DNA from: Umboniibacter marinipuniceus
GTDB lineage: Bacteria > Pseudomonadota > Gammaproteobacteria > Pseudomonadales > DSM-25080
Reading direction: 5' to 3'
NCBI RefSeq assembly: GCF_003688415.1
Contig: NZ_REFJ01000002.1
Coordinates: 310,001-374,000, forward strand
Length of the DNA stretch: 64,000 nucleotides
Positions 35,665 to 40,197 of the stretch are shown here, in pieces. The stretch's first letter is position 1. Each line of letters opens with the position of its first letter. Under the pieces are notes generated by a model. It saw only the letters and a list, made by a program, of their open reading frames with translations, searched no databases and had not been told where the DNA came from. A program made the position numbers and the translations under genes.

Positions 35665-37779
35665 GTGATAAAAGGTTCCTTCAAGCCAATTGCGCTAGCA
35701 CTGGTTGTCTCGGGTTTAAGTGTTGGCACAGCCACCGCTTACGAGCAAAATGTATTCGAATTTAGCCCTGTGGAGCAGGAAACGCTTCAAGACATTGCCG
35801 GGATGTTAGAGTCTGAACATTACTCACGTCAAACACTCAATGACGCCTATTCGGAGCGTTGGTATGAGCTTTACCTAAAATCACTAGATCCAAGTAGGCT
35901 GTTCTTCCTCCAAAGTGATATCGATGAGTTCGAACAATTCCGCTTTACCCTCGATGATCATACCCTGGAAGGATCATTGCGCCCGCTTGAGTATATCAAC
36001 GCTCGGTATAATCAGCGTACGTTTGAGCGCTACGAAGCGATTCAAGTACTTTTAGCCAACGGCGTAGAGGTGTTTGACTTCAGTCAGGACGAAGCGCTAG
36101 CGCGAGATCGTAGTGAAGCGAGTTGGCCCGAGGATATGAATGAAGCCGATGACCTTTGGCGCCGTTACCTAAAGAATGCTGCACTAAGTTTAAAGTTAGC
36201 GGGTAAAGAACCTGCGGCGGCCACTGAAACCTTGCAGAAACGTTACGACAACCAAGCAAGACGCCTATCTCAGTTAAACGCCGGTGATGCCTTTGACCAG
36301 TACGCTAACGCCTTAACCTTGGCCTATGATCCCCATTCGTCTTACCTTTCTCCACGTGCGCTGGAAAATTTCGAAATTTCAATGCGGTTACAGTTAGAAG
36401 GTATCGGCGCAGTCCTTCAACAGGATGGTGAATACACCAAAATTGTTTCACTCGTTAACAATGGCCCGGCGGACAAAGAAGGTAATCTTTCGCCAGCGGA
36501 TCGGATTGTTGGCGTTGGTCAGGGCGATAGCCCTATTGAAGATGTGATCGGCTGGCGTTTGGATGACGTGGTAGACCTTGTGCGCGGCGACTCAGGCTCA
36601 ACGGTTCGTCTTGAAGTTCTCAAACGCGGTTCCGATGATCTCTCGAGTACGGTTGAAGTGGCTATCGTTCGCGAAGCCGTTCAACTCGAAGAGTCCGCCG
36701 CATCCGGAGAGGTTCATGACGTTTGGGATGGTGAACGTATTCGCAAAGTAGGCGTTATTACCATTCCAAAATTCTACATGGATATGGAGGCCTATCGTAA
36801 TCGAGACCCTAATTTCCGTTCCACCGCTAACGACGTTTTCGATATCCTTCGTGAAATGGAAGCGGAACGAGTAGAAGGCATCGTTATCGACCTACGTAAT
36901 AACGGCGGCGGCGCGTTGATAGAGGCGGACCGCCTGACTGATTTGTTCATTGACCCGGGTGTGGTGGTACAGATTCGCTACGGTGATACCCGCGTTTCAC
37001 GCCAACATCGAGCTCGACACCCTATGATCTATAGCGGGCCTTTGGTGGTAATGACTAACCGTCTATCGGCATCGGCTTCAGAGATTTTCGCTGGCGCAAT
37101 CATGGACTACCAGCGTGGCATCGTAGTGGGTACGCCTACTTTCGGCAAAGGAACGGTGCAAAGTATCGAATCCTTTGACGGCGGCGCTCTCAAGGTTACC
37201 GAATCGATGTTCTATCGCGTTAACGGCCAAAGTACTCAGTTCGATGGTGTTGTACCACACATCCAATTCCCTCTTCAGTATGACCCGAGTGATATCGGCG
37301 AGAGCGCCTACCCGTATGCTTTGGCGTGGGAGCCGATTCATGCTGTGGACCATAATGTTTGGATCGACACGGACCGGTACGTGCCTGTGCTTACGGCTGA
37401 ACACCGTGCAAGAACAAGCGATGACGGTGATTTTAACTACCTCCGAGAGCGCTACGACTGGATGCAAACACAGGGCCTTCAATCAGAAATCACGCTCAAT
37501 TACGATCAGCGTTTGCGAGAGAAAGAAGAATTCGAGGCATCAGCGTTAGCCATTGAAAACAATCGTCGAGCGTTGAAGGGGCAAGATCTACTCACTTCTT
37601 TGGATGAACTTGATGATGCCAACGACGAGGAACTCGACGTTGATCTGGAAGTATCGGAAAGCGATGAAGAAAATTCACCACCTGACTTTATTCTGGATGA
37701 GTCCACGTATATCCTAGTCGACCTAATTAATCTTACACGTTCAGAGAACATAGGCCGCTGGGTTCAACGCGACGATTAG
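35665..37779 (+). CDS. prc: Carboxy-terminal (tail-specific) protease Prc
   Basis: 704 residues from GTG 35665 (SD TAGGAG). A signal peptide (about 1-26) sends it to the periplasm. An N-terminal helical region precedes a PDZ domain (about 235-335, with RLQLEGIGAVLQQDGEYTKI). The S41 protease core has the Ser-Lys dyad: Ser470 in SASASEIFAG, with Asp481 and Lys495 in GTPTFGKGTVQ, spaced exactly as Ser430/Asp441/Lys455 of E. coli Tsp. The C-terminal domain (DUF3340) ends in an acidic stretch. It trims FtsI and degrades murein hydrolases and ssrA-tagged periplasmic proteins in E. coli. Confidence 0.95.
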   Translation: MIKGSFKPIALALVVSGLSVGTATAYEQNVFEFSPVEQETLQDIAGMLESEHYSRQTLNDAYSERWYELYLKSLDPSRLFFLQSDIDEFEQFRFTLDDHTLEGSLRPLEYINARYNQRTFERYEAIQVLLANGVEVFDFSQDEALARDRSEASWPEDMNEADDLWRRYLKNAALSLKLAGKEPAAATETLQKRYDNQARRLSQLNAGDAFDQYANALTLAYDPHSSYLSPRALENFEISMRLQLEGIGAVLQQDGEYTKIVSLVNNGPADKEGNLSPADRIVGVGQGDSPIEDVIGWRLDDVVDLVRGDSGSTVRLEVLKRGSDDLSSTVEVAIVREAVQLEESAASGEVHDVWDGERIRKVGVITIPKFYMDMEAYRNRDPNFRSTANDVFDILREMEAERVEGIVIDLRNNGGGALIEADRLTDLFIDPGVVVQIRYGDTRVSRQHRARHPMIYSGPLVVMTNRLSASASEIFAGAIMDYQRGIVVGTPTFGKGTVQSIESFDGGALKVTESMFYRVNGQSTQFDGVVPHIQFPLQYDPSDIGESAYPYALAWEPIHAVDHNVWIDTDRYVPVLTAEHRARTSDDGDFNYLRERYDWMQTQGLQSEITLNYDQRLREKEEFEASALAIENNRRALKGQDLLTSLDELDDANDEELDVDLEVSESDEENSPPDFILDESTYILVDLINLTRSENIGRWVQRDD

Positions 37780-37790
37780 TCAACCCTGCC

Positions 37791-37817
37791 GTGACCCCTG
37801 TTCTCTTCAGGGGTCAC
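37791..37817 (+). promoter_or_regulatory. Perfect hairpin burying the xthA ribosome binding site
   Basis: GTGACCCCTG (37791-37800) is exactly complementary to CAGGGGTCAC (37808-37817), with a 7-base loop TTCTCTT. The only Shine-Dalgarno of xthA, AGGGG (37809-37813), lies wholly in the 3' arm, and the ATG begins at 37819, one base after the stem. No T tract follows, so it is not an intrinsic terminator. As RNA it should hide the start site unless it is opened. Confidence 0.75.
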
Positions 37818-37818
37818 C

Positions 37819-38628
37819 ATGCGCGTCATCAGTTTCAACATAAATAGTGTCCGAGCTCGTCTGCATCAACTTGAAGCTATTATCGCTACCCATCAACCGG
37901 ATTTTATCGGTCTACAGGAAACCAAAGTAGATGACCCACAGTTTCCATTGGCCGCAATAGAAGACTTAGGTTACCACTGTATTTTTCACGGTCAAAAGTC
38001 GCACTATGGCGTAGCGCTGTTGTCAAAGCTACCGCCCCTATCGGTGGTGAAAGGTTTTCCTACCGATACCGATGATGACCAAAAACGTTTTGTCGGCGGA
38101 AGCTTTGACATCAATGGCAAAATTGTCCATGTCTACAACGGATACTATCCTCAAGGTGATAATCTTAGTCATGCCACTAAATTCCCAGCTAAGCGGAAGT
38201 TCTATTCGGACTTAACTAAACTCATGGCGAATCATGATTTGGCCAATGAAGCCGTCCTGCTCATGGGGGATAACAATATTGCACCGCAAGACATCGATAT
38301 CGGTATTGGTGCCGATAACCAAAAGCGTTGGCTCAGAACAGGTAAAGCAAGCTTCCAGCCCATTGAACGAGACTGGCTGGCAACATTAACCGGATTAGGC
38401 TTCGTGGATAGCCACCGCCATCTCAAGCCAACATCAACTGCACTAAGTTGGTTCGACTATCGAAGCCGAGGCTTTGAACGCGACCCTCGAACGGGGCTGA
38501 GAATTGATCTTATTCTCACTTCAAGCTATCTCACGGGCGGGTTGAAGGACTCAGGCATCGACTACGATATAAGGGCGATGGAAAAACCGTCTGATCACGC
38601 ACCCTGTTGGTTAGAGCTTGAACTCTAG
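37819..38628 (+). CDS. xthA: Exodeoxyribonuclease III
   Basis: 269 residues. It is an AP endonuclease and 3'-5' exonuclease of base excision repair. Metal and catalytic motifs: SFNINSVRARLHQL, GLQETKVDD (catalytic Glu), NGYYPQGDN, GDNNIAPQDIDIGI (Asp-x-Asn), FDYRSRGFERDPRTGLRIDL and the C-terminal SDHAPCWLEL (catalytic His). It starts 39 bases after prc, and a perfect hairpin covers its ribosome binding site. Confidence 0.96.
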   Translation: MRVISFNINSVRARLHQLEAIIATHQPDFIGLQETKVDDPQFPLAAIEDLGYHCIFHGQKSHYGVALLSKLPPLSVVKGFPTDTDDDQKRFVGGSFDINGKIVHVYNGYYPQGDNLSHATKFPAKRKFYSDLTKLMANHDLANEAVLLMGDNNIAPQDIDIGIGADNQKRWLRTGKASFQPIERDWLATLTGLGFVDSHRHLKPTSTALSWFDYRSRGFERDPRTGLRIDLILTSSYLTGGLKDSGIDYDIRAMEKPSDHAPCWLELEL

Positions 38629-38717
38629 TTGCCAAGTAGCAAGATCACGGAACTTAACGGTCCTAAAGTGAAAGTTAGGCATATAATCAGTACTAAACCT
38701 AGTTATAAGAGCAACCA

Positions 38718-39491
38718 ATGACCTCTGACTACCAAGCAAAAAAGCAGTTCCTAGCCTCAATGATCAGCGTATATGGACGAAAGCCAGTGTTAGAGATGTT
38801 GGAAGACCACAGCTTGTTGATTCATAAGCTTCATCTCGCTGACAGCAATAAGCCTCAGGGAATTATCAAGGACATTATCCGTGCAGCGGAGTCTAGGGAT
38901 GTAGAGATCCTCTACCACGATCGCAAATCGCTCTCCCGTATATCTCGGAATATGAAGCAGGATCAAGGCGTGGTGGTAGATGTTCATAACCCCAAAATGA
39001 ACCTGCTGAGTAAAGCAGCACTCAAATCAACTGAGAAGACTGGCCAATGGCTTCTTCTCGATAACGTCACCAACCCACAGAACGTGGGTATGATTATCAG
39101 AAGTGTAGCGGCTGCAGGCATCAATGGACTCATAATACCGCGCCAAGCCAACGCTAGCCTTAACGCGCTGGTTGTAAAGAGCAGCGCCGGCACGCTTTTT
39201 AAGGCACCTATACTATTGTGTGACACCGTATCGGAAGCCATTGAAATTATTCAAACCCAGGGGCTCAATATTGCCGTGCTCGCGGGCGAAGCAAAGGAAG
39301 ATGTGTTTAGCTTTGCGGCAACTGATGGTGTTGGTACGGTTTATGTGATGGGTAATGAAAGCGAAGGCGTATCGAAGGAAACTCGCAAAGCCGCTACCCA
39401 TGCGCTATCAATACCCATGCATAACGAAGTAGAGTCTCTAAATGTAGCCGTTGCGGCCTCAATAGTGGCCTACGCCACGCAAATCAGCTAG
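38718..39491 (+). CDS. TrmH/SpoU-family RNA 2'-O-ribose methyltransferase
   Basis: 257 residues. A small N-terminal substrate-binding domain (about 1-95: SVYGRKPVLEMLEDHSLL, QGVVVDVHNP) precedes the SPOUT knot. All three motifs are clear: LLLDNVTNPQNVGMIIRSV, VMGNESEGVSKETRK and IPMHNEVESLNVAVAASI. The architecture is like RlmB (23S G2251) but the N-terminal domain is short, and the target (rRNA or tRNA) cannot be read from sequence. It is convergent with trmO, with a 7-base gap. Confidence 0.85.
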   Translation: MTSDYQAKKQFLASMISVYGRKPVLEMLEDHSLLIHKLHLADSNKPQGIIKDIIRAAESRDVEILYHDRKSLSRISRNMKQDQGVVVDVHNPKMNLLSKAALKSTEKTGQWLLLDNVTNPQNVGMIIRSVAAAGINGLIIPRQANASLNALVVKSSAGTLFKAPILLCDTVSEAIEIIQTQGLNIAVLAGEAKEDVFSFAATDGVGTVYVMGNESEGVSKETRKAATHALSIPMHNEVESLNVAVAASIVAYATQIS

Positions 39492-39498
39492 AGAGCAC

Positions 39499-40197
39499 CT
39501 ACGCTACGCCCTGGATAGTTACGGCGTTCTCACTAACGGTAAATTTAAATTCTATCCCCTCAAGACTTACCCCGTAAACACGGGCTTCGTCGTTATGATA
39601 AGAGGGCCTAGGGTCCTGAGCCAAAATTTGTTCAACACCCGTCATGTCCGTTAAGTTTAGCTTAGCGCTTATCAACTCAAACTCGTTCCTAGCCTGATCC
39701 GTCCAAACAACTTTCAGAGTGCGCGGTGGTTGATCTGCCATCAAGTAGGTCGCATCGGCTACGCTGTCAACGTAAGGCACATAGGGCTTAATATCTAAAA
39801 TTGGTGTGCCGCTAACAAGATCTACTCCGGAAACATGAATTTCCGTGCGCCCACCAAGGACAACCTTATCCAATTTCAGCACCGATAGACCGAGTGGGTT
39901 CGGTCGATGGGTTGAACGCGTAGCAAAGACACCAACACGCTCATTACCGCCTAATCGCGGCGGCCTAACCGTCGGCTTGTCTGAAGCGCCAACTAGATGA
40001 AAGACAAAGCTAACCCAGATATGAGTACAGCCTTCTAGGCCTAGCACAAAGTTAGGGTCTGAGTAGTCGTCGTCAAGCACGATTACCCCTCTCGCGCCCG
40101 CTGCTAAACGTGCCTGCCGAGGCACAGCAAACTTGCTATCAAAGGGTGTGTTGATGACCCCAATTCGCGATAGTAAAAAGTCTTTAGCTGTCGTCAC
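39499..40197 (-). CDS. trmO: tRNA (N6-threonylcarbamoyladenosine(37)-N6)-methyltransferase TrmO
   Basis: 232 residues, UPF0066/YaeB family. It methylates t6A37 of tRNA-Thr(GGU) to m6t6A. IGVINTPFDSKFAVPRQ, the SAM-binding block VGVFATRSTHRPNPLGLSVL and GTPILDIKPYVPYVD are diagnostic. A C-terminal domain (about 155-232) contains the region LAQDPRPSYHNDEARVYGV. It overlaps the upstream 71-codon gene by 14 bases and closes the smc-zipA-ligA operon. Confidence 0.93.
   Translation of the reverse strand: MTTAKDFLLSRIGVINTPFDSKFAVPRQARLAAGARGVIVLDDDYSDPNFVLGLEGCTHIWVSFVFHLVGASDKPTVRPPRLGGNERVGVFATRSTHRPNPLGLSVLKLDKVVLGGRTEIHVSGVDLVSGTPILDIKPYVPYVDSVADATYLMADQPPRTLKVVWTDQARNEFELISAKLNLTDMTGVEQILAQDPRPSYHNDEARVYGVSLEGIEFKFTVSENAVTIQGVA

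Follow-up and report, generated by a model that had tools for sequence, protein, structure and literature searches.

In Umboniibacter marinipuniceus the Shine-Dalgarno (SD) sequence of xthA, the gene for exodeoxyribonuclease III (ExoIII), is buried in a perfect hairpin that lies between xthA and its upstream neighbour prc. We propose, with a probability of about 0.5, that this intercistronic hairpin is a built-in brake on the translation of xthA, which acts through the buried SD and leaves xthA dependent on the ribosomes of prc. The hairpin is real, is of a known kind and is probably functional; the braking mechanism is one that we infer. The window is the whole stretch of 64,000 nucleotides that was analysed; its genome is referred to as G000 and the genome of the same genus with which it is mainly compared as G002. 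The features of the junction are collected in Table 1.

Direct reading of the sequence gives the perfect 10-bp stem and 7-base loop reported in the preliminary description, with the whole SD of xthA in the 3' arm and the ATG one base past the stem, as was also stated there. The range then given (37791-37819) includes the first base of the ATG, whereas the hairpin proper stops at 37817. Arms and loop form a perfect inverted repeat, 27 bp in all. The spacing from AGGGG to the ATG is 5 nt, and the predicted duplex of this SD with the anti-SD (-6.0 kcal/mol) ranks 59th among 157 genes. The stem is followed directly by CATGCGCG, with no U tract, and the hairpin was missed by both terminator scans; it was therefore rejected as a canonical intrinsic terminator, in agreement with the earlier description.

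For the xthA start, the matches of relatives mostly begin at residue 1 or 2. The upstream gene ends in a TAG at 37777-37779, so placed that the stem begins 11 nt and the xthA start 39 nt past the stop. It scores 591.4 against the long-form model NF008388, under the cut-off of 825, and its true start may be deeper in the frame, near 35803. A simple sigma-70 scan of 36500-39500 gave no match upstream of xthA and one at 38839. As no sigma-70-like site precedes xthA in the scanned stretch, the gene would be read from the transcript of prc, and the two probably share one transcript, though promoters of other types, which lie outside the scan, are possible. About 42 kb upstream lies another exonuclease III-like gene (G000:C2:304476-305228), with 33% identity to xthA.

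Table 1. Features of the prc-xthA junction, with positions in the window.
Feature	Position	Strand	Basis or remark
prc, C-terminal processing peptidase, upstream neighbour	35665..37779	+	TIGR00225 prc, 272.2 bits, cut-off 218.6
AGAGAACA in the 3' end of prc, 8-bp complement of TGTTCTCT	37743..37750	+	speculative long-range pairing
prc-xthA gap, 39 nt, equal length in G002	37780..37818	+	sequence
Hairpin, 10-bp perfect stem, 7-nt loop	37791..37817	+	sequence, folding, 9 pairs and identical loop in G002
Hairpin 5' arm, GTGACCCCTG	37791-37800	+	sequence
Overlapping frame, 18 codons, GTG at stem base, no SD seen	37791..37847	+	speculative reinitiation frame
TGTTCTCT, top of 5' arm and loop	37799-37806	+	partner of AGAGAACA
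Hairpin loop, TTCTCTT	37801-37807	+	sequence
Hairpin 3' arm, CAGGGGTCAC	37808-37817	+	sequence
AGGGG, only SD-like site seen for xthA, entirely in 3' arm	37809..37813	+	sequence
Single C between stem end and xthA ATG (37819)	37818	+	sequence
xthA, exodeoxyribonuclease III	37819..38628	+	NF008733, 392.7 bits, cut-off 280

The thermodynamic model assigns -18.6 kcal/mol to the isolated stem. The fold of 37750-37850 has a minimum free energy (MFE) of -32.6 (z of -2.67; two of 200 shuffles were as good), and over the prc-xthA junction the MFE z-scores are -4.6 in the window and -4.3 in G002. Both genomes have the start region of xthA as the most stable of 111 orthologous intergenic start regions, at -19.7 kcal/mol in G000 (mean -4.7) and -16.1 kcal/mol in G002 (mean -4.5). 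The cost of opening it is 18.8 kcal/mol in G000 (rank 2 of 157) and 16.2 kcal/mol in G002 (rank 1 of 157), where the start-region controls use automatically chosen start codons, some of them wrong. The SD and start of xthA thus lie in a stable predicted structure, the mark of a hairpin that masks a ribosome-binding site (RBS).

The hairpin of G002 is identical to that of G000 at 24 of 27 bases and keeps nine of the ten stem pairs together with the entire loop. One pair is kept as G-U (A37794 is a G in G002), the outermost G-C pair has become A/G and is lost, and the compensatory stem changes sought in the preliminary description are absent between the two sequences compared. Loss of stem pairing in close relatives had been named there as an argument against control through the hairpin; in G002, the one usable close relative, the stem is retained. 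The genus has a third genome, G001 (87% complete), in which xthA had no match and prc matched only a paralog at 35% identity, so that it could not serve for comparison. Between G000 and G002 the amino-acid identity is 88% for prc and 85% for xthA, and fourfold sites are near saturation (64/215 identical in the aligned part of prc, 27/92 in xthA). Over the 28 bases before the start, a mean of 21.2 are identical in 196 ortholog pairs; at least 25 of 28 are identical in 41 of the 111 intergenic start regions, xthA included, and all 28 in 15 of them. As 41 of the 111, its own among them, are conserved to at least this degree, sequence conservation of the xthA region proves little, and retention of the most stable structure in both genomes is the stronger point. 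Synonymous conservation at the 3' end of prc (15/20 codons) was rejected as evidence, its last 25 codons ranking only 58th among 178 genes. Genes of this genus are far more conserved at their edges than inside: across 132 genes with at least 150 aligned codons (G000 contig C2, 150001-374000, against G002 contig C5), identity at fourfold sites reaches 63% over the first ten codons and 55% over the last ten, against 37% more than 100 codons from either end.

The junction was compared more widely at 137 loci, 23 of which carry both genes, always on the same strand and adjoining. Two of these are duplicates, which leaves 21 distinct relatives (G002 included) and, with the window, 22 junctions; at the other 114 loci one gene is absent from the covered stretch (often 1500 bases of flank), which does not count against adjacency. 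The neighbours are found in Gilvimarinus, Marinimicrobium, Microbulbifer, Porticoccus and SAR86, among others, and the adjacency is old. Five of the 22 junctions have a gap of 1-26 nt and no strong hairpin between the genes. The gap is at least 35 nt in the other 17, the window and G002 included, and 15 of these have an MFE z-score of at most -2.2, the weaker folds being those of L010 (-1.8) and L149 (-0.9). At such gaps most relatives have a hairpin upstream of the SD, and it often takes the form of a U-tract terminator. Ten of the 17 junctions pass a gapless hairpin-plus-T test, L157 doubtfully owing to scattered Ts; the test misses four more (L082, L112, L155 and L156), whose imperfect stems can be seen by eye to be followed by a run of Ts. 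A terminator T run is lacking at three: the window, G002 and L034. At four loci from Microbulbifer or similar organisms (L098, L103, L110 and L166), the prc terminator stem is separated from the xthA ATG by 20 nt; this leaves little room for a promoter, so that xthA there may need terminator read-through or a promoter that overlaps the terminator.

The hairpins of Microbulbifer, Marinimicrobium and other relatives share with the present one the junction and a strong, GC-rich stem. They differ in that they mostly have T runs, a distance of 18-37 nt from stem to ATG (among the ten that pass the test) and a far more open SD, whereas the hairpin described here has no T run and holds the SD inside its stem. 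At the 20 remaining junctions, opening the xthA start costs 1.4-10.1 kcal/mol, compared with 18.8 in the window and 16.2 in G002. In this comparison the SD is 0.1% unpaired in both of the latter and 1.6%-98.8% unpaired in the other 20, where the lowest values belong to L085 (1.6%; a 1-nt gap and no real SD) and L103 (5.2%) and the rest are at least 23%. Among the 22 junctions, the SD is buried so deeply only in this genus. A search of 390 genomes of the order with a 24-nt core and up to three mismatches returned G000, G002 and a single three-mismatch match in G106, which was rejected as a true copy (about 0.6 are expected by chance, and its contig is C17, whereas the prc of G106 is on C16); no further true copies were found in these genomes.

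These comparisons suggest that a terminator-like hairpin of prc has come to act as a brake on the translation of xthA, an origin read from the position of the hairpin and not from demonstrated homology between hairpin sequences. The model keeps the SD 99.99% paired at 37 C, so that unassisted initiation on xthA would be very weak and free ribosomes would hardly be able to start there. The product of xthA would come mainly from ribosomes just off prc that scan or reinitiate over the 39 nt, and the two genes would then be translationally coupled. Scanning or reinitiation, at low efficiency, is favoured over direct unfolding because the stem begins 11 nt past the prc stop. The front of a ribosome that terminates at this stop would just reach the foot of the stem or fall slightly short of it. 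Opening by ribosomes that finish prc, as first suggested, is possible, but simple unfolding would thus be weak. Overall, xthA would be held at a constant low ratio to prc and tied to it. Against the brake count the finding of the hairpin in two genomes only, the lack of compensatory change and the outermost pair lost in G002.

A review of translational coupling, which covers both unfolding and scanning models (PMC12548453), describes coupled pairs with a structured downstream start as established. Its examples with an RBS-masking structure (Escherichia coli rpmI-rplT, phage f1 VII-IX and MS2 coat-lysis) resemble prc-xthA in having a hidden downstream start and same-strand neighbours, and the spacing of +52 nt in rpmI-rplT compares with +39 here. 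In f1 VII-IX and MS2, by the same account, upstream translation reaches the structure, whereas the prc-xthA hairpin lies wholly past the stop, beginning at 11 nt (PMC12548453). The review also reports that structure immediately after a stop correlates with weaker coupling, and that a stop placed well upstream of the hairpin abolished coupling in f1 VII-IX (PMC12548453). If the brake is right, prc-xthA would be a further example of hairpin-controlled neighbouring genes and no new class. The level of ExoIII would be linked to the expression of prc, and one intergenic position would serve as a transcription terminator in some lineages and as a translation brake in another, which lets one ask how attenuators shift from transcription to translation as gaps shrink.

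It is possible, if rather doubtful, that the hairpin serves mainly prc, as a 3'-end stabilizer or a worn-down terminator; its overlap with the SD would then be a by-product of the short gap, and xthA would be needed at a very low level. Such a role fits the hairpins, often with U tracts, between the two genes in relatives, and it fits the pair L033 and L034, two Gilvimarinus species in which the T run after a similar hairpin is present in one and absent in the other. The second xthA-like gene would also allow xthA to be partly dispensable. However, this genome does use U-tract terminators (five of 20 convergent gaps pass the test, and four look clean) and the xthA hairpin has no U tract; further, an SD held in the arm in both genomes should cost expression, yet xthA is well conserved.

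A regulated switch, in which a small RNA or an RNA-binding protein would bind the loop UUCUCUU and so open the stem or lock it, with oxidative stress as one conceivable trigger, is unlikely. The identity of the loop in two genomes near synonymous saturation speaks for it, but identical start regions are frequent in the genus, and a stem of -18.6 kcal/mol would be hard to open in trans. Nor do the scans favour a trans-acting partner: the hairpin has no second copy in the 2.69 Mb genome, either as an exact match or when arms of 8 bp and loops of 3-15 are allowed, and a dispersed repeat or regulon motif was rejected on this ground. No Rfam family matches 37600-38000 at gathering score (sub-threshold snoRNA matches only). 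A scan of IMG/VR returned no relative. The looser pattern CCCCT-loop-AGGGG-ATG is uninformative, with three forward matches against two per strand in the reversed control. The open-licence papers searched, on coupling, the prc operon, SD stem-loops and thermometers, describe no RNA switch on xthA, as had been presumed from the outset.

Chance, or an inherited coincidence without function, is about as improbable. Perfect stems of at least 10 bp with loops of 3-10 number 14 per 224 kb of this genome, compared with one to four in six Markov-1 samples, and among the 14 the xthA hairpin is the nearest to any called start (1 nt; the next is at 13 nt). Twelve of the other 13 lie outside called genes, and 11 of these 12 have a T run in or just after the 3' arm and look like terminators. 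The number of stems expected within some ten positions of 157 starts is about 0.015 at the random rate, which argues against coincidence, and about 0.1 if the observed rate is used instead, a rate that terminators inflate and that is kinder to it. The occurrence in two genomes only, the conservation that start regions show generally in this genus and the missing compensatory change all suit coincidence; the start region of xthA nonetheless stays extreme in both genomes.

The palindrome could alternatively be a DNA operator for a dimeric regulator instead of an RNA element, as a perfect 27-bp inverted repeat might suggest. This is very doubtful, given its single genomic copy, the lack of a sigma-70-like site beside it and the change A37794G in G002, which breaks the symmetry of the DNA but keeps an RNA G-U pair. 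Elsewhere in the genome, a 13-bp perfect AT-rich inverted repeat that ends 13 nt before a called start (G000:C2:202157-202186) may be an operator. In ROSE and FourU RNA thermometers the SD is paired in a hairpin near the start, and the xthA hairpin shares this arrangement. A thermometer is nevertheless excluded on the thermodynamic model, as is the opening by heat envisaged in the preliminary description: the unpaired fraction of the SD is 0.0001 at 37 C, 0.0015 at 60 C (99.85% paired) and 0.0147 at 80 C (about 98.5% paired), so that the perfect, GC-rich stem, unlike ROSE and FourU elements, does not release the SD at biologically relevant heat; it also has no four-U run opposite the SD and no Rfam thermometer match.

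Two further features lend themselves to a three-part sensor of prc translation, which we regard as a long shot: reinitiation at the GTG at the stem base would unzip the hairpin and expose the xthA SD, and pairing of AGAGAACA with the loop would lock the hairpin when prc is untranslated. In RepY-repZ and the leader-frame regulation of replication genes, a hairpin that holds the SD is opened or shaped when a short frame is translated and a loop pairs; prc-xthA would resemble them only under this speculative sensor, and its short frame overlaps the xthA start. Were the sensor true, a DNA-repair nuclease would depend on the translation activity of a periplasmic protease gene. Neither the pairing nor the short frame is evidence for the brake, and both were noticed post hoc. 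The free duplex of AGAGAACA and TGTTCTCT is predicted at -10.3 kcal/mol, and an 8-bp match arose in 9 of 3000 shuffled flanks; the pairing is also present in G002, but only because the two segments are themselves conserved. It would not be surprising for a start codon to occur by chance in a 39-nt gap, and the short frame of G002 has an ATG at the equivalent place and runs to 15 codons.
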